Origin: an uncultured Verrucomicrobia subdivision 3 bacterium
GTDB taxonomy: Bacteria > Verrucomicrobiota > Verrucomicrobiia > Limisphaerales > UBA11358
Assembly: GCA_903850425.1 (NCBI GenBank)
Contig: CAINLR010000176.1
Span: 1-64,000, forward strand
Length of the DNA stretch: 64,000 bases
Direction of reading: 5' to 3'
Shown here: positions 2,310-42,483 of the stretch, one piece after another
Layout of the letters: every line of letters starts with the position of its first letter
Position numbering within the stretch: the stretch's first letter is position 1
Notes under the pieces: model-generated
Told to the model about the DNA's origin: nothing
Seen by the model: the letters and a program-made list of their open reading frames with translations, nothing else
The model's database searches: none
Made by a program: the position numbers and the translations under genes

Positions 2310-5177
2310 TTATTGGGGCACTATAGAATAGTAGCGTTGTGGCTTATCCGGCGAACCGTAGTCAATAATCACGGTAGGATTGGAAACGATAGTCGCGCTC
2401 TGGATTGGCACCCAGGCCGCCGAGTAGGTTAGATTGGTGATGTATTGGACCAGGCAAGCACCGCCCACGGGACCATTGATATTCACGCCGGCATATTTCT
2501 TGGTTGCGGTCAACCACAGGCTCGCGGCAGCACTGGTGTTGGTGCCCGACGAATTCCAAACCGTGACCGTATATTGGCCCACGTTGGTGGCCCCGGCGCT
2601 GTTGAGGTTGTAACTGGAGCCCACGGCTCCGTTGATGATGCTATTGTTAAAATACCATTGATAGCTCAGCGGCATTGAACCGGTGACTGCCACGGTAAAG
2701 CTGGCGTTTGCGCCCACGTTCACAACTTGTGTCACGGGATTGGTGGTGATGGTCGGTGGCGTGGGCAGGTTGGTTGCGGAAAGCAATACGCCTTCAATTT
2801 CTGAGAAAGCTAATCCAGGAGCCCAGTTTGATCCGCCCGCACCAAAATATGCCGTGGTCGTATATGACCAGGTGGCGTGACTGGAATCCGTCACCAGATA
2901 GGTGCCGGGGGCAAGGATTATGTTAGGGTAAGCATACCAACTGCCATTGACAACCCCACCATAGGCCGTAAAACCCACCGCTGGCCATTGCCCGATCACA
3001 TTCGTCGAAACCCCCGTGATAATCTGTTTCAAACCAATGGTTCCAGGAGTAGCACCGGACCCGGAATTGTAGTGGTAGTTATAAATGGAGGTGATCAGTG
3101 TTCGTTTGGAAAGCTGAAAGACTGGATCGCTGGTCGGATTGCTCAACGTGGCATCCTGATTAAAGCTGTTATAAAGATTAAGGATTGGTAAAGAAAGGCT
3201 GGCCACTTGACTCGTTAGCGAACCGGAGATATTGCTTACCACTACCAAATAATTGCCCGTATTGGTTGGCGAAACATTGGGCACAATCAGGTTGGTGGCA
3301 TTGGCCCCAATGATGTTGGTTCCATTGAAAAACCACTGGTAAGTCAAAGGCGCAGTTCCCGTCGCTGTCACCGTAAAGGTGGCATTGCTCAGGTAACCCA
3401 CTGTCTGGCTTTGTGGTTGAGTAATGATGCTCAAGGTATTGCTGACGGCATTGGTAATCGTCAGCGTTCCATTCACCAGGCTTACCAGGTAATTGCCCTG
3501 CCGGCTGTTGGGATCAATCAGGCTGGGCACAATAGGATAAGACCCCGCCGGGCTGGCCGTGACGGCGCTACAGGCATAGCTGGCGGTGATGTTATCCGCG
3601 TTGACCAATCCCGAAATGATTCCGCCAAACACCGGATTAGCGGCCCCATATCCACGCGTGGCGTTGCTGGCTGTTACGCTCAAGGGCATTCGTTGGACAG
3701 CCAAGCTCACACTGCCGGTCGCCGAATTGTAATTAACTGTATCCGTAGGTGTGAACGCCACTGAAAGCAGATTCGTTCCTGCATTCAAGATTGCTCCGGA
3801 GGCTGGAACGTAGGCAAAGCCACCCGGCAAACTGGCCTTGGCGTTAAGTTGATTGGAGCTTAACGCAGTGCCGTAATTGATGGCTGCCGGATTGGTCCAC
3901 GTCAATACCGGCGAAGCTTTGAGCACAGCGAGAGTGGCGGGCGGACTGTTGGTGCTGCCACCGCCATTTGAAATGGCTACGGAATAATTGCCGGCATCGC
4001 TCATCAGCACCCCGGCGATGTTCAAGACGTTGGTTTGAACGCCGGAGATGCGAACATCATTGGTGAGATTGGTTCCATTCAAACGCCATTGATAGGCGAG
4101 CGCGGTTCCTGTGGCAGTGACGGTGAAACTTAGGTTGGTTCCCACAATGGCACTCTGGCTTTGGGGTTGGCCGGTGATCACAGGCGGCATGGCTAAAGAG
4201 ACAACCTTGTAATCGTCAAAAAGCAGATAGTTGTCGCCGGGATGTGCCTGATCGGTGTAATCCCATCCAGCGGCAATGGTCCAAAGGTCCCTAAGTTGAC
4301 CCGGACTGCCAATTGGTTGATTGGTAGCCAGCACCAGTCCGCCTAAAGTGGCACTCCATTTGTTTTGTGCATAGTCCAGTTGAATGACGAGTTGGTATTG
4401 GATGCCATTGGTAAAAGTTAGCGGGGTTAAAACCCAATCATTTGTTCCAGACACCGACCATATTGTCATCGAGGTATTTCCGAATGCCAAACTTAACGAT
4501 TGGTTTCCGGCTGTGTCGTAAACGTTCCAGTAAAACCAATCGTAATAGCCGTTGGAGGAATCTTCGATTGCCATAGTGGTTGAAAACTGGATCGGCTGGT
4601 TGGCAATAAAGTTTGTCAGATTGAGCGGATACCAAACATAATTGCCATATTGATTGGAACTGATTGGCGGATTGTAACCGAGGTAGGCTTGCTGGCCTTT
4701 TCCCGGGAAGAAGTCATTCACAATCCCGTTGCCATTATCCCAACTATTCAACCACCCTGCTTGTCCTCCCAAAAATGAACTTGTGTTGAAACCTTGGTTG
4801 GTTTCAAAACCTGTTTGGTAAGGGAAATTGGGATTATTACTCAACTGCACCAGTGTCATACCCCATTGCGGTCCAGAGTCGACGACTTTGTAAGCTTGGT
4901 TCGGATAAACATTAAAATTCACCCAATTGCAATTGGTGACACACATCCAGATGGACAACGTAGTGGCATTGGTAATGGGGATTTGGACCGTTTGGCTCTG
5001 AGCCAAAGTATATTGGTTGCCCAGAACCGCGATGGCGATTGTGCCGGGGACGGAAGTGGCATTGCTGACCGTAATGCTTTGCCCCATGGCAGGCACCAAG
5101 CAGTGCAGGAATAGCGCCAAGCCAAACGCGGCCAAGCCATAGACTCTTAGTTCTGCCCATTGTATTATTGTTTTCAT
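2310..5177 (-). CDS. secreted multidomain Ig-like/MBG-domain protein
   Basis: A 955-residue exported protein, probably an extracellular or surface adhesin-like structural protein; no catalytic domain is visible. The signal peptide spans about residues 1-33 (GLALFLHCLVPAMGQS). A concanavalin/LamG-like beta region covers about 105-330 (FETNQGF, LLFDDYKVV). An Ig-like domain (about 335-420) is followed by MBG-type repeats (about 420-580, with 'YGTALSSNQLNA' and 'VTASNATRGYG'). After these come an Ig domain, a unique segment (about 670-810, beginning LNLYNSFNQDATLS), another Ig domain and a C-terminal module ending QRYYSIVPQ. That tail resembles the ends of several other secreted proteins here. 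Codon use and domain style match the gene downstream at 106-2160, and the two may be a tandem pair with a 149-bp gap. Confidence 0.82.
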   Translation of the reverse strand: MKTIIQWAELRVYGLAAFGLALFLHCLVPAMGQSITVSNATSVPGTIAIAVLGNQYTLAQSQTVQIPITNATTLSIWMCVTNCNWVNFNVYPNQAYKVVDSGPQWGMTLVQLSNNPNFPYQTGFETNQGFNTSSFLGGQAGWLNSWDNGNGIVNDFFPGKGQQAYLGYNPPISSNQYGNYVWYPLNLTNFIANQPIQFSTTMAIEDSSNGYYDWFYWNVYDTAGNQSLSLAFGNTSMTIWSVSGTNDWVLTPLTFTNGIQYQLVIQLDYAQNKWSATLGGLVLATNQPIGSPGQLRDLWTIAAGWDYTDQAHPGDNYLLFDDYKVVSLAMPPVITGQPQSQSAIVGTNLSFTVTATGTALAYQWRLNGTNLTNDVRISGVQTNVLNIAGVLMSDAGNYSVAISNGGGSTNSPPATLAVLKASPVLTWTNPAAINYGTALSSNQLNAKASLPGGFAYVPASGAILNAGTNLLSVAFTPTDTVNYNSATGSVSLAVQRMPLSVTASNATRGYGAANPVFGGIISGLVNADNITASYACSAVTASPAGSYPIVPSLIDPNSRQGNYLVSLVNGTLTITNAVSNTLSIITQPQSQTVGYLSNATFTVTATGTAPLTYQWFFNGTNIIGANATNLIVPNVSPTNTGNYLVVVSNISGSLTSQVASLSLPILNLYNSFNQDATLSNPTSDPVFQLSKRTLITSIYNYHYNSGSGATPGTIGLKQIITGVSTNVIGQWPAVGFTAYGGVVNGSWYAYPNIILAPGTYLVTDSSHATWSYTTTAYFGAGGSNWAPGLAFSEIEGVLLSATNLPTPPTITTNPVTQVVNVGANASFTVAVTGSMPLSYQWYFNNSIINGAVGSSYNLNSAGATNVGQYTVTVWNSSGTNTSAAASLWLTATKKYAGVNINGPVGGACLVQYITNLTYSAAWVPIQSATIVSNPTVIIDYGSPDKPQRYYSIVPQ

Positions 5178-37377: not shown

Positions 37378-37528
37378 TCTTGGTTGAGGCGACGTTGGAA
37401 ACTCGCGGCGGAGATCGCGCGCATGCGCGCCCAGTTCGACGTGGAGCGCTGAGGTGTGCCTGGCACACAACAAACTGGATTTTTTGGTCCGATCGGTTAA
37501 GCTCGCGCGGCTTCGTAATAATGCGCCA

Positions 37529-39109
37529 ATGAACCATTTTATTCGTCAGATCCTCATGGTGGTCGGCCCGGGTGTTTTTCTGGTGATGCTGCCAGTTCAT
37601 GTTTTGGCTTGGGATGCCATAGGCGTCACGACTTTGCGGGCGATGACTACCAATCTGGACGGCACCGGCATTCGGGTGGCGCAGCCGGAGGATGGTTTGG
37701 ATGCCGGAGATCCGCAGGCCTGGGTCGTGGACCCGGCTGAAATTGGCCAATCGGAGAGCCTGTTTACCTACACTTCATCCGCTGGCTCCACCAATGTTTT
37801 TCCAAATGTGCTCGGCGTCGGTTCCTTTCACGCGAGCTGGGTTGGCGGGATATTTTACGGTTCCTACGACGGTGTCGCCCCTCACGTCGCGCATGTGGAT
37901 AATTTTGAATATCATTATTTTATCAGCGCCTATATCGCGGGCGACCAGGTGGCGCTTGGCGATCCCGTGGTCAATCAGAGCTATGGCCTCGGCCGCTTGC
38001 CCGCAGCCATTCAACAGGGGTATGACTCCATGTTCGACGACTACGCCGTGCGTTTTGGAACCTTGTTTGTTTCCGCCGTGGATAACGGCAATGGCGTGCA
38101 TGCGCCGGCCACCTGCTACAACGGCATCGGGGTGGCGGCTTACGGCACAGACAATTCCAGCATCGGGCCAACGGTGGATAACGGCCGCTGCAAGCCGGAT
38201 ATTTGCGCGCCGGATTACGTGACGAGTTTTTCCACGCCGCAAGTGGCCGGCTCGGCCACCGTGTTGTTGCAGGCGGCCTTGCGCGGCGACGGCGGTCCGA
38301 GCACCAATGCGGCATCCGACCTCCGCACGCTCAAGGCATTATTGCTGAATGGGGCGGTGAAGCCCGTGGGCTGGACGAACGGCCGTGCCACGCCGCTCGA
38401 TGCGCGTTATGGCGCCGGGGTGGTGAACGCTTATAATGCTTACGCGCAGCTCACCGGCGGCAAACACGGTTACAATATTTCCAATCTCATCACCAGTGGC
38501 AGCGCCCATCTGCCCGCCGCCGGCACCGGCACGGTGCCAGTGCTGACTGGCTGGGATTTCAGCACCAATTTTAGCGCCAGCACGCCCACTGCCCGCGACG
38601 GGGTGAATCATTATTACTTCGACGCCACGAACAGTCCGGATACATACCTTTGCACCGCCACGCTGGCTTGGAACCGGCAGTTTGGCCAGACGAACATCAA
38701 CAATCTGGGGCTGTTTCTTTACAACTGTGCCAACAGCAACCTGGTCGCGTGCAGCACCAGCCTGGTGGATAACGTGCAACATGTTTTTGCCACCCAACTC
38801 GCGCCGGGGCGTTATGATTTGCAGGTGTGGAAAGCGGGTGGGGCCGGCATCGTCAGTGCAACGGAACCCTATGCGCTGGCTTTTTCATTCGTTGCTCCCA
38901 AGCTCACGGTTTCTTGGTCGGGAAGTGCGCTCTTATTGAAATGGCCGGTCTATCCCGCCGGCTTGGCCGTGCAAGCCAACCCCGACGTGTCCGTAACGAA
39001 TGGCTGGAACACCGCGATGCTGCCAGACCCAGTGATTACCAATGGCGAGTATGTCATTCCGGTTAACCCTTCCAGCGCGTCGCAATTTTTCCGCCTCGGC
39101 CAGCCTTGA
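37529..39109 (+). CDS. secreted S8 (subtilisin-like) family protein
   Basis: A 526-residue exported protein starting at ATG 37529. The signal peptide is about 1-27 (ILMVVGPGVFLVMLPVHVLA). The S8 fold is visible: GTGIRVAQPE where the catalytic Asp motif normally lies (the acidic residue is E54), SFHASWVGGIFYG...GVAPHVAHV (catalytic H101), VNQSYG (oxyanion N149) and VTSFSTPQVAGSA (catalytic S233). A C-terminal beta domain (about 370-455, HYYFDATNS..) resembles a pre-peptidase domain. The tail ends SQFFRLGQP, as in other secreted proteins here. Glu in place of Asp is seen in some planctomycete/verrucomicrobial S8 proteins, to my knowledge, so activity is possible but not certain. Confidence 0.8.
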   Translation: MNHFIRQILMVVGPGVFLVMLPVHVLAWDAIGVTTLRAMTTNLDGTGIRVAQPEDGLDAGDPQAWVVDPAEIGQSESLFTYTSSAGSTNVFPNVLGVGSFHASWVGGIFYGSYDGVAPHVAHVDNFEYHYFISAYIAGDQVALGDPVVNQSYGLGRLPAAIQQGYDSMFDDYAVRFGTLFVSAVDNGNGVHAPATCYNGIGVAAYGTDNSSIGPTVDNGRCKPDICAPDYVTSFSTPQVAGSATVLLQAALRGDGGPSTNAASDLRTLKALLLNGAVKPVGWTNGRATPLDARYGAGVVNAYNAYAQLTGGKHGYNISNLITSGSAHLPAAGTGTVPVLTGWDFSTNFSASTPTARDGVNHYYFDATNSPDTYLCTATLAWNRQFGQTNINNLGLFLYNCANSNLVACSTSLVDNVQHVFATQLAPGRYDLQVWKAGGAGIVSATEPYALAFSFVAPKLTVSWSGSALLLKWPVYPAGLAVQANPDVSVTNGWNTAMLPDPVITNGEYVIPVNPSSASQFFRLGQP

Positions 39110-39155: not shown

Positions 39156-39183
39156 TTGACCACACGCGGGATTTCAATAAACT
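39156..39183 (+). promoter_or_regulatory. candidate sigma-70-type promoter for the ilv leader
   Basis: TTGACC (39156-39161) and TAAACT (39178-39183) are separated by 16 bp. Transcription from here would begin near 39190, only a few bases before the leader ATG at 39193, which lacks a Shine-Dalgarno; the leader could be translated leaderless. Confidence 0.5.
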
Positions 39184-39192
39184 GCGTCCGCA

Positions 39193-39267
39193 ATGTTGAA
39201 AAACCTGTCGCAAGCTGTCATTCTGGTAGTCGCTGTAGTAGTCAGCGATGCCGTTGGCGCTTGTTGA
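39193..39267 (+). CDS. branched-chain amino acid leader peptide of ilvB
   Basis: A 24-residue open frame that is too short for usual gene calling. It begins MLKNLSQ and then reads AVILVVAVVVSDAVGAC. Eleven residues are Val, Leu or Ile, seven of them Val, with the run at residues 9-17. It ends 87 bp before the ilvB start and just before a terminator hairpin, the arrangement of IlvL/IvbL leader peptides in enteric bacteria. When charged Val/Leu/Ile tRNA is scarce the ribosome should stall in the valine run. The role is inferred from position and composition. Confidence 0.8.
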   Translation: MLKNLSQAVILVVAVVVSDAVGAC

Positions 39268-39317
39268 ACGAAGTCTTTAACAAAACCCACGGCTGGAAAC
39301 GGCTGTGGGTTTTTTGT
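39230..39317 (+). promoter_or_regulatory. transcription attenuator of ilvB (pause, antiterminator and terminator structures)
   Basis: Three mutually exclusive pairings can be drawn. A pause-type hairpin TCGCTG (39230-39235) with CAGCGA (39243-39248) lies in the valine codons. An antiterminator pairs GCCGT (39250-39254) and TTGTT (39261-39265) with ACGGC (39289-39293) and AACAA (39279-39283). The terminator stem is at 39281-39317. A ribosome stalled on valine codons frees 39250-39265 to form the antiterminator; one that reaches the stop codon at 39267 covers it and allows termination. Confidence 0.72.
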
Positions 39318-39319
39318 TA
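39279..39319 (+). terminator. Rho-independent terminator in the ilvB leader
   Basis: The stem CAAAACCCACGGCT / GGCTGTGGGTTTTTTG closes a GGAAAC loop, and the T-run is built into the 3' arm. It lies between the leader peptide stop and ilvB, so it must be read through for ilvB expression. Confidence 0.85.
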
Positions 39320-39354
39320 CCCTGGGCCGCACCGCCACAACCAAGAACAATAGT

Positions 39355-41238
39355 ATGAGCAAGACCATTAAGAAGTCCGCCACCGCGAAAACCAAACCCC
39401 GCGCCGAAGTCGGTGCGCCCATGTTCGGGCGCGATATTTTCGTCGAGGCGCTGGAACGCGAAGGCGTGGAAGTCATTTTCGCCTATCCCGGCGGCGCGAG
39501 CATGGAAATCCACCAGTCGCTGACGCATTCCAAAATTCGCACCATTCTGCCGCGCCATGAGCAGGGCGGTTCGTTTGCCGCCGAAGGTTATGCGCGCGTG
39601 ACCGGCAAGGCGGGCGTGTGCATGGGCACGAGCGGACCCGGCGCGACGAACCTCGTCACGGCCATCGCCGATGCTTACATGGATTCCTGCCCGCTCATCG
39701 CCATCACGGGGCAGGTGAACCAGAACATGATTGGGCGTGGCGCGTTTCAGGAGACGGACATCATCGGCGTCACGCTGCCCATCGTGAAACATTCCTACCT
39801 GATCACGGACATCAAAGACATTCCGCGCATTGTGAAGGAAGCGTTTTACATCGCGCAATCGGGTCGCCCCGGCCCGGTGGTCATTGATCTGCCGAAAAAT
39901 ATTCAGCAGGCCAAAGCGCAGCCCGTCTGGCCGACGTTTGAAGAAGTCAAAAAAGGTTTGCCCGGCTACACGCAACCCGATTTGAAGGCGGATGACATTG
40001 CGCTCAACGAAATCATCGGCCTGATCGAGAAGGCGGAACGCCCGGTCATTTATTGCGGCGGCGGCATCATCACCAGCGGCGCGGCGGCGGAACTCAAGAA
40101 GTTTGCCGAGGCGACCAACATTCCCGTCACGACCACGCTCATGGGCATCGGCGGTTTTCCCGAGACGCATCCGCTGTCGTTGCGCTGGCTCGGCATGCAC
40201 GGTTCGGCTTCGGCGAACTGGGCGGTGAACGGCGAATACGAATACCGCAAGAGTTTCAACGATCCGATGATCAAGCTGAAGGACGGCGCGGATTTGCTGC
40301 TCGCGTTCGGCGTGCGTTTCGACGACCGCGTCACCGGCAAGTTCGAGGAATTTTGCAAGCATGGCACGATTGTCCACCTGGACATTGACGCGTCGGAGCT
40401 GAACAAAAACCGCAAGGCCAATTTGCCCATCGTCGGCGACATCAAGGACGCGTTGACGCGCCTGAATAAGCTGGTCGCCAAACGGCCGCTGCAAAAGAAG
40501 CACACACCGTGGCTCGCGCAGATTGCCGAGTGGCAGGCCAAAGGTCCGTTCGCCTATCGCATCACGCCGGAAATCGCCAACAGCGATCACATGGTGGATC
40601 ACATGCAGGGCAAGGAGAGCGAAGTGATTTTGCAACAGATGGTCGTCGAGACGCTTTACGAACTGACCAAGGGCGAAGCCTACATCACCACTGGCGTCGG
40701 CCAGCATCAGATGTGGGCGGGCCAATGGTATAAGTATAAATACCCGCGCCAGTTCGTCACCAGCGGCGGTCTCGGTTCGATGGGCTACGGCTATCCCGCC
40801 GCGCTCGGCGTGAAGGTCGCGTTGCCCGACAAACAGGTCGTGGACATTGACGGCGACGGCTCGTTTCTGATGAACATTCAGGAACTCGCCACCGCGCACA
40901 TCGAAAAAATTGCCGCGAAAGCGATCATCCTGAACAACCAGCACCTCGGCATGGTCGTGCAGTGGGAGGATAATTTCTACGCCGGCAATCGCGGTCACAC
41001 CTACCTCGGCGACCCGAAACATCGCCCGGACATTTATCCCGACTATGTTGCCGTGTGCAATTCCTTCGGCGTGAAATGCGAACGCGTGATGTTCAAGAAG
41101 GATTTGCGCGCCGCCATGCAGCGGATGCTCGACGCCGATGAACCTTATGTGCTCGACGTGGTGGTGCCTTACAGCACGCACGTCATCCCCTTCATTCCCG
41201 CCGGCAAGACCGTGGCGGACATGATCTGGAAACCGTAG
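39355..41238 (+). CDS. ilvB: acetolactate synthase large subunit
   Basis: The thiamine-diphosphate-dependent enzyme that condenses pyruvate to acetolactate (or with 2-oxobutyrate) in Val/Leu/Ile synthesis. The 627-residue protein has a Lys/Ala-rich N-terminal extension (1-24). The ThDP-activating glutamate is E69 in LPRHEQGG, followed by GTSGPGATN, ITGQVNQNMIGRGAFQETD, the FAD-binding middle domain, and the ThDP/Mg motif GDGSFLMN...NN from about residue 500. It is longer than the E. coli enzymes, with extra sequence at about 405-430 (ITPEIANSDHMVDH). No small subunit (ilvH/ilvN) follows. Expression is probably governed by the leader attenuator upstream. A GAAA-loop hairpin lies 34 bp after the stop. 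Confidence 0.95.
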   Translation: MSKTIKKSATAKTKPRAEVGAPMFGRDIFVEALEREGVEVIFAYPGGASMEIHQSLTHSKIRTILPRHEQGGSFAAEGYARVTGKAGVCMGTSGPGATNLVTAIADAYMDSCPLIAITGQVNQNMIGRGAFQETDIIGVTLPIVKHSYLITDIKDIPRIVKEAFYIAQSGRPGPVVIDLPKNIQQAKAQPVWPTFEEVKKGLPGYTQPDLKADDIALNEIIGLIEKAERPVIYCGGGIITSGAAAELKKFAEATNIPVTTTLMGIGGFPETHPLSLRWLGMHGSASANWAVNGEYEYRKSFNDPMIKLKDGADLLLAFGVRFDDRVTGKFEEFCKHGTIVHLDIDASELNKNRKANLPIVGDIKDALTRLNKLVAKRPLQKKHTPWLAQIAEWQAKGPFAYRITPEIANSDHMVDHMQGKESEVILQQMVVETLYELTKGEAYITTGVGQHQMWAGQWYKYKYPRQFVTSGGLGSMGYGYPAALGVKVALPDKQVVDIDGDGSFLMNIQELATAHIEKIAAKAIILNNQHLGMVVQWEDNFYAGNRGHTYLGDPKHRPDIYPDYVAVCNSFGVKCERVMFKKDLRAAMQRMLDADEPYVLDVVVPYSTHVIPFIPAGKTVADMIWKP

Positions 41239-41271
41239 TTTCAAACTGGAACGGACGGGAATTGCATCGCC

Positions 41272-41297
41272 AGCCGGAACGAGAAATCGTTCCGGCT
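41272..41297 (+). terminator. strong hairpin downstream of ilvB
   Basis: A perfect 11-bp stem AGCCGGAACGA / TCGTTCCGGCT with a GAAA tetraloop, 34 bp after the ilvB stop. No long T-run follows, so it may be a 3'-end stabiliser or a REP rather than a classical terminator. Confidence 0.55.
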
Positions 41298-41426
41298 CAT
41301 TTCCGCCGTCCCGCCGGGGGGCCAAAGCAGCTGACTGCCGTCCCTGACCGGACTGGGGAATTGGGTTGGCGACAGTCCCAGCACTCAAAGGCAGGGCTAT
41401 TTTCAGCGCAGCTGCCGCCCTCACGG
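41298..41426. other. intergenic spacer between ilvB hairpin and tandem array
   Basis: About 130 bp of GC-rich sequence with small GGGACGG/CCGTCCC-like fragments typical of dispersed repeats. No gene or promoter is evident. Confidence 0.4.
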
Positions 41427-41762
41427 CACCAGTGTGTCGTCCCCGAATGAGTAAACGCTTTTCCGTGTCTGGGAAATGCGTTCCCCGAACCGGGGAGTCC
41501 ATTCCCCTAACATAAGAACGCACTACCCGGTCATAAGTATGCATTCCTCGAACGTAAGAGCGCACTCCCCGGTCATAAGTATGCATTCCCCGAACGTAAG
41601 AGCGCACTCCCCGGTCATAAGTATGCATTCCCCGAACGTAAGAGCGCACTCCCCGGTCATAAGTATGCACTCCCCAAACGTAAGAATACACTCTCCGAAC
41701 ATAAAGATGTGCTACCCGAACGTAAGGATATATTTCCAAGACATAAGAACGCACACCAGCCT
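41427..41762 (+). repeat. 21-bp tandem repeat array upstream of the sigma factor gene
   Basis: Sixteen units lie in exact 21-bp register. The core units (41511 to 41762) alternate CATAAGTATGCATTCCCCGA+A and CGTAAGAGCGCACTCCCCGG+T, with a consensus of YRTAAGNRYGCAYTCCCCGR. Copies at both edges are progressively diverged, and the central copies are nearly identical, as expected for tandem expansion. Because 21 is a multiple of three, several frames stay open through it (for example MHSPNVRAHSPVIS on plus), which produces false long ORFs. The array stops about 80 bp before the sigma factor ATG. Confidence 0.92.
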
Positions 41763-41844
41763 ACCGCCTGACGGATTCAACAAAAACAGCGCAGAGTCGA
41801 AATATTATTGCCAACCAATTGAGCTATTGCACATTATCCCAGAC

Positions 41845-42483
41845 ATGGAACCAGACACGGATGAATTAATTCCGACGCGCGCGACGTTGTTGCACCGGCT
41901 GAAGGATCATCAGGATAACGCCAGTTGGCAGTTGTTTATTGATACTTACAAGAATCTGATCCATGGCGTCGCGACCAAGGCGGGTTTGAGTGCAACGGAA
42001 GCCGAGGAGGTGGTGCAGGAAACGGTCATTTCCGTTTCCAAGCACATGCCCTCATTCAAATATGACCAGTCCATTGGTTCCTTCAAGGGTTGGCTCTTGA
42101 ACCTGGCCCGCTGGCGCATTGCCGACCAAGTGCGCAAACGTTCGCCGCACCTCGCCGAACAACCCGCTCCGGAGACCTCGACTGACTCGGTGGTTGACGT
42201 GCGCGGGGCCGAGTCGCCGGTGGACCCGGTCTGCCCGGCGTTTGAAGCCATGTGGGATGCCGAATGGGAAAAATATGTCATGGACTTGGTCCGCAAGAAA
42301 GTGAAGCGCCAATTGGATCCGCAAAAATATCAAATTTATGATTTTTACGTGAATAAGCAGTGGCCGCCGGAAAAAATTGCCGCGACCTTTGGCATCCCCA
42401 TCAGTCAGGTGTATCTGGCCAAGCACCGCGTGATCGAGCTGATTGCCGAAGAAGTCAAGCTTCTGAATCTGCCCCCGGCCTGA
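41845..42483 (+). CDS. ECF-like RNA polymerase sigma factor
   Basis: A 212-residue sigma-70-family protein. Region 2 covers about 25-100: FIDTYKNLIHGVATKAGL, EAEEVVQETVISVSKHMPSFKYD and GSFKGWLLNLARWRIADQVRKR, with the characteristic 2.4 segment. Region 4 is about 150-205: LDPQKYQIYDFYVNKQWPPEKIAATFGIPISQVYLAKHRV. ATG 41845 is chosen because the longer frame runs into the tandem array. No anti-sigma gene is adjacent, as is common for planctomycete/verrucomicrobial ECF groups with large linkers. Targets are unknown. Confidence 0.88.
   Translation: MEPDTDELIPTRATLLHRLKDHQDNASWQLFIDTYKNLIHGVATKAGLSATEAEEVVQETVISVSKHMPSFKYDQSIGSFKGWLLNLARWRIADQVRKRSPHLAEQPAPETSTDSVVDVRGAESPVDPVCPAFEAMWDAEWEKYVMDLVRKKVKRQLDPQKYQIYDFYVNKQWPPEKIAATFGIPISQVYLAKHRVIELIAEEVKLLNLPPA

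Follow-up and report, generated by a model that had tools for sequence, protein, structure and literature searches.

A probable ribosome-mediated attenuator with a valine-rich, nearly leaderless leader peptide before ilvB in the Limisphaerales

Introduction

What governs transcription of ilvB in a verrucomicrobial genome in which a short frame crowded with valine codons, followed by a terminator, precedes the gene? The locus lies in a 64,000-nucleotide stretch of contig CAINLR010000176.1 from an uncultured member of UBA11358, in the order Limisphaerales of the phylum Verrucomicrobiota (the whole stretch is referred to here as the window), and a first-pass annotation had proposed that it works by attenuation with the logic of Escherichia coli ilvL/ivbL. 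Those E. coli leaders possess an untranslated 5' region and a ribosome-binding site.

Attenuators of this kind have been described from several other bacteria. In Corynebacterium glutamicum the transcription of ilvBNC starts one nucleotide from the start codon of the leader, which is therefore leaderless, and mutations in the start codon and the Val codons change expression (PMC11857589). Candidate ilvB leaders were reported from Actinobacteria in 2005, among which a similar-looking leader in S. coelicolor gave no response when the candidate regulatory codons were changed (PMC1262725), so that anatomy alone is no proof of attenuation; the M. tuberculosis ilvB leader was analysed in 2026 and its terminated leader RNA mapped (PMC13236596). 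The authors of a 2010 survey of premature terminators knew of leader-peptide systems only in Proteobacteria and Actinobacteria and added the Firmicutes, and its text does not mention Verrucomicrobia (PMC2965389). The first-pass annotation knew of no described case from this phylum, and a search of the open-licence literature likewise found no report of leader-peptide attenuation from it, an absence which is not proof; the leaderless leader peptide as such does have a precedent, in C. glutamicum ilvBNC (PMC11857589).

Materials and methods

The genus sample comprised 49 genomes of one family, all of one genus, 42 of which gave an ilvB match. Of 217 Limisphaerales genomes searched across the order, 201 yielded IlvB, and upstream DNA was read at 80 named-record loci and at 60 loci chosen across families, together representing 34 of the 48 Limisphaerales families; the 14 families with lower-scoring IlvB (f2, f8, f13-f15, f17, f20, f25-f27, f37, f42, f43 and f48) lay outside this reading. 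Attenuators at other operons were sought with a covariance model of the ilvB element, and ilvC and hisG by family. Outside the order, matches scoring less than about 35 bits against the model were for the most part normal terminators at the 3' ends of unrelated genes and were dropped (L186, L187, L191-L195, L197-L200, L202-L204, L207, L210 and L213). Column-wise counting of pairs on the order-wide alignment proved uninformative for the core of the antiterminator, because there is hardly any variation in the core and the flanks are misaligned, and a partner-swap test was used instead.

Results

The ilvB element in the window

The element and the gene behind it comprise the following parts.

39156-39183, forward strand: predicted sigma-70-like promoter TTGACC-16-TAAACT, with the -35 at 39156-39161 and the -10 at 39178-39183 (promoter scan; TTGAC spacing in relatives)
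39193-39267, forward strand: leader peptide frame MLKNLSQAVILVVAVVVSDAVGAC and stop (sequence read; conserved in 35 genus loci and 128 order-wide)
39217-39243, forward strand: putative regulatory codons 9-17 (Val Ile Leu Val Val Ala Val Val Val), also segment 1 (sequence read)
39224-39253, forward strand: candidate protector hairpin (1:2), 39224-39235 with 39243-39253, in which Val codons would pair with the beginning of the antiterminator arm (minimum free energy folds and RNAalifold consensus; support moderate)
39250-39265, forward strand: segment 2, the predicted 5' arm of the antiterminator, GCCGTTGGCGCTTGTT, within the last leader codons (pairing, consensus fold, duplex energies)
39279-39293, forward strand: segment 3, the predicted 3' arm of the antiterminator, AACAAAACCCACGGC, overlapping the 5' arm of the terminator (pairing, consensus fold, partner-swap test)
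39283-39318, forward strand: predicted intrinsic terminator, a 13 bp stem with a GAAA loop and a T tract (folds; alignment columns)
39355-41238, forward strand: ilvB, acetolactate synthase large subunit (TIGR00118, 677 bits against a cut-off of 538)

The leader runs from ATG to TGA (stop codon 39265-39267) over 24 codons, 11 of which encode Leu, Ile or Val, with VILVVAVVV at codons 9-17; the coordinates and the count given by the first-pass annotation were right on reading. The promoter has 9 of 12 consensus matches, chance alone being expected to give 0.6 sites of this quality over the 1.5 kb scanned, and the leader ATG follows 9 nt after the end of its -10; transcription would start near 39189-39191. 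The gene upstream (37454-39109) lies on the same strand as ilvB. The proposed terminator was borne out by folding, the stem of 39283-39295 with 39300-39312 and its T tract giving approximately -22.7 kcal/mol, and the 137-nt leader as a whole folds 4.0 sd better than dinucleotide shuffles. The terminator is absent from the list of a simple pattern scanner, probably because the stem runs into the T tract. No Rfam leader family matched, the best being His_leader at 19.7 bits against a gathering threshold of 49, with none in the window, and a scan of 16 related loci returned only one tRNA.

Beyond ilvB, between it and an ECF-type sigma factor gene, a tandem array with 21/42/84-bp periods occupies 41500-41754. 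This array is open in frames on both strands, and the long ORFs there are thus probably over-extended (the start of 41476-42483, and 39277-41754 on the minus strand).

Conservation in the genus and the order

Among the 37 genus loci taken, a leader was called automatically in 35; of the other two, one lies on a contig which breaks off within the element and the second carries a leader, MLKHSQAPAQWLAFAAGVVVNGDAAGAC, that is longer and poorer in Val. In the genus alignment the N-terminal codons are variable and the Val run changes in length, with a nearly invariant end, SDAVGAC before the stop codon; outside the genus the end typically reads (D)A.G.CR. and stop. In the order as sampled (34 families), the element was found before ilvB in nearly all loci with enough upstream DNA, giving 128 distinct copies. 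Of their leaders 122 start with ATG and six with GTG, and Val makes up 26% of the residues, Leu 8% and Ile 3%, with at least three Val in each. The stem columns of the terminator and its T tract are invariant, or nearly so, in both the genus and the order alignments. The first-pass annotation had suggested aligning the DNA upstream of ilvB in relatives and looking for covariation, and the alignment has leader, antiterminator and terminator kept together across the order. The genes upstream of the element are mostly unrelated (52 clusters in 75 loci), and the element thus travels with ilvB. On these comparisons, the ilvB attenuator is very probably a near-universal trait of the sampled Limisphaerales and not a curiosity.

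Two groups of copies have diverged. Some members of family f46 (L113, L119 and related) have few branched-chain codons, for example VSVGG (MSEAVQKAPVSVGGPEAAGGACRYA), and keep the terminator and antiterminator. With so few of these codons the sensor may be weakened in some f46 leaders, and in those of the L113/L119 type the sensed amino acid may have been lost or changed. In the genus, L017 and L019 have a diverged leader, NNLTVVVVPSGAAVGC, and TTGAC is missing at the usual spacing; the promoter there appears to have been shifted or replaced.

Promoter spacing and coding evolution of the leader

The end of the TTGAC(N) hexamer lies 26-37 nt before the leader start codon in 124 of the 128 elements (mode 31, mostly 30-33), and the best -10 most often ends 9 nt before it; given this spacing, the RNAs are predicted to have 1-5 nt ahead of the start codon. 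Shine-Dalgarno-like 4-mers were found in three of the 128 leaders, fewer than the nine expected by shuffling. A leader ATG close to the predicted start and lacking a Shine-Dalgarno, which the first-pass annotation had pointed out in the window, is by these measures a conserved arrangement across the elements.

The frame is also predicted to be translated. All 64 of the alignment gaps inside it are multiples of three, those outside being mostly of 1, 2, 4 or 5, and 29% of its changed codons are synonymous, with a mean BLOSUM62 score of +0.8, compared with 15% and 19% (means -0.8 and -0.4) in the other two frames; as the sequence pairs are not independent, these gap and substitution figures are descriptions and not probabilities. 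Judged by this pattern of change, the leader evolves as coding sequence, a short frame rich in codons for the products of the pathway (11 of 24 in the window).

Antiterminator and terminator

A predicted intrinsic terminator lies between the frame and ilvB, and the predicted antiterminator, which pairs the end of the frame with the 5' arm of this terminator, would be mutually exclusive with it. In the window GCCGT pairs with ACGGC and TTGTT with AACAA, exactly as the first-pass annotation described, with GG:CC between them, but in most relatives the helix is longer than these two blocks, pairing at 14 of 16 positions and reading AACAAGAACCCACGGC where the window is one base short. The pairing of the window is weaker because this base is missing on the terminator side (AACAAAACCC versus AACAAGAACCC), and its segment 2:3 duplex has an energy of -16.4 kcal/mol, as against a mean of -21.6 over the 128 loci. 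The RNAalifold consensus pairs three blocks near the end of the frame (GCCG, GG and CTTGTCG) with CGACAAG, CC and CGGC, which lie before and in the terminator; the CTTGTCG:CGACAAG part is compatible with the terminator, and the exclusive part is GCCG..GG with CC..CGGC.

When partners were swapped among the 128 loci, the sum for true pairs was -2770.6 kcal/mol compared with -2529 (sd 25) for permuted pairs, a value which none of 5000 permutations reached; with one genome per family (28 families), eight of 20000 permutations were as good. When synonymous codons were shuffled, pairing became weaker on average across the loci (mean z -1.9); the window's own pairing is unremarkable in this respect, as 24% of shuffles pair as well. 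The covariation that had been anticipated is thus seen in the partner-swap permutations, which indicate that the end of the leader and the terminator arm co-vary. A version of the protector hairpin is kept in the RNAalifold consensus; its columns vary more and many cells are unpaired.

The folds of the window gave -22.7 kcal/mol for the terminator, -14.9 for the antiterminator and -19.1 for the leader's own hairpin. At equilibrium the antiterminator would lose to the more stable terminator, and we therefore infer that the switch must act during transcription, before the 3' arm of the terminator is made. A decision taken during transcription is usual for attenuators.

A leucine-rich counterpart at leuA

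The covariance model found one other good match in the genome of the window, on the minus strand of contig C93 at 4323-4448 (L206), where a GTG-initiated frame, MNNNLNLLLTNALRNSAAAGF and stop, and a terminator precede a gene which, recognised from its sequence, we take to be leuA. Elements of this design precede leuA at L205 and L283-L335 too. In the genus and the order, 47 of 50 leuA loci gave a call of leader and terminator, a small number of these calls perhaps being in error; of the three loci that lack a call, two have gaps or truncation. These leaders, mostly with GTG starts, contain 29% Leu and 5% Val, and in 36 of the 47 the promoter-to-start spacing is 28-33 nt, as at ilvB. The end of the leuA leader likewise pairs preferentially with its own terminator arm (16 of 5000 permutations did as well), and the leuA parts pair poorly with those of ilvB. 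With Leu at leuA and Val at ilvB, the type of codon follows the gene and matches the biosynthetic gene downstream. On reading, the regions upstream of ilvC and hisG in the genome of the window had no leader and terminator.

Beyond the order

A crude scan covered 29 loci, which with one or two exceptions belong to other families of this class, and found no leader rich in branched-chain residues with a terminator before ilvB. Families f84, f85, f88, f90, f96, f97, f99 and f103, from another part of the phylum, have such leaders and terminators before an acetolactate synthase-like gene. These leaders are often of the CCCACCGC type, an example being MLQKVEFYLVLVLVLVRAPRWEGGY (L188), and several carry TTGACA with a -10 immediately ahead of the start codon, and are apparently leaderless. 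Loci in that part of the phylum with a branched-chain leader and a terminator are L188, L189, L196, L201, L256, L258, L259, L262, L265, L269 and L272. They may be homologous to the Limisphaerales leaders or of separate origin. In two further families of the class, at L185 (387-543) and L190 (1501-1639), a short frame rich in Ile, Leu and Val and a terminator stand before a methyltransferase-like gene, followed at L185 by a homoserine dehydrogenase-like gene.

Discussion

We consider it highly probable, on comparative sequence grounds, that the ilvB element is a ribosome-mediated transcription attenuator which senses valine through a nearly leaderless leader peptide. The likeness to E. coli ilvL/ivbL proposed by the first-pass annotation gains support from the co-conservation of the parts, their co-variation, the coding evolution of the frame and the codon identity that follows the gene. 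In the model, transcription would start 1-5 nt upstream of the leader ATG, giving a nearly leaderless 5' end on which a ribosome would load in the absence of a Shine-Dalgarno. Where charged tRNA-Val (and less so those for Leu or Ile) is scarce, the ribosome would stall in the Val run; placed at codons 9-13, it would leave 39250-39265 free to pair with 39279-39293, so that the terminator would be blocked and ilvB transcribed. Where charged tRNA is plentiful, a ribosome at the stop codon would cover the antiterminator arm and the terminator would form. If there is no translation, the protector hairpin would hold the start of the antiterminator arm, leaving the terminator free to form.

Alternatively, the leader might be translated from a longer RNA starting further upstream, or by internal initiation, the closeness of promoter and ATG being accidental; attenuation would still work, with no leaderless start. 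The -10 of the window is only a moderate match and its start site is a predicted one, and L017 and L019 lack TTGAC at the usual place, which would suit such a reading. It is nevertheless improbable, as TTGAC falls within a 12-nt range of positions in 124 of the 128 elements, Shine-Dalgarno-like 4-mers are rarer than expected, and most leuA leaders (36 of 47) keep to this distance, at 28-33 nt.

It is less probable still that the frame is untranslated and that the RNA leader senses a ligand or protein, either as a riboswitch or as a protein-binding terminator or antiterminator. The strong conservation of the 3' half of the leader and of the terminator as RNA would be expected of such a leader, but triplet gaps, frame-specific substitutions and the exchange of Val for Leu between ilvB and leuA would not, and no Rfam leader family reaches its cut-off. 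That the hairpin is simply the terminator of the same-strand gene which ends at 39109, and the Val-rich frame a product of chance, has a negligible probability: a predicted promoter lies between that gene and the hairpin, and the comparative data refute the idea, since the element remains in front of ilvB in genomes where another gene lies upstream.

The ribosome-mediated attenuator favoured here has close parallels in known systems. It shares with E. coli ilvL/ivbL a Val/Leu/Ile leader peptide, an antiterminator competing with a terminator, a protector hairpin and acetolactate synthase genes downstream, and differs in that the frame begins almost at the predicted start of the RNA. Like C. glutamicum ilvBNC, it has a branched-chain-rich leader peptide before ilvB with a terminator and antiterminator; there, however, the leader has 15 codons and lies 292 bp from the structural gene, compared with 24 codons and approximately 165 nt here, in another phylum, and the regulation was tested (PMC11857589) whereas here we infer it, the likeness carrying no claim of sequence homology. 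As in the actinobacterial ilvB leaders, a short branched-chain frame and a terminator before ilvB are conserved across species (PMC1262725, PMC13236596), but the frames overlap the terminator in the 2005 survey (PMC1262725), and that of the present element, from another phylum, ends before it. At leuA, both the actinobacterial LEU element and the element described here have a short Leu-rich frame before the gene; a pseudoknot with the leuA Shine-Dalgarno box was proposed for the former (PMC1262725), whereas the latter has a terminator with a T tract. Attenuation and the leaderless start of a leader both have precedent, and the mechanism, as compared with these systems, appears a classical one.

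The results would place classical amino-acid attenuation in a phylum for which our search turned up no earlier report. The Val/ilvB and Leu/leuA elements, taken as a pair, amount to a natural swap experiment, which supports the mechanism without the laboratory, and the constant spacing from promoter to start codon makes leaderless initiation in attenuation testable across an order-wide set. More tentatively, and with slightly more doubt than belief, we suggest that the Verrucomicrobiota hold old and widespread leaderless attenuators, Val-rich at ilvB and Leu-rich at leuA (the latter mostly leaderless GTG), and that attenuation in this phylum uses initiation at the 5' end of the RNA and not at a Shine-Dalgarno. 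If this is true, leaderless attenuation throughout the phylum would link RNA polymerase with the first ribosome as soon as the first nucleotides of the transcript are made.
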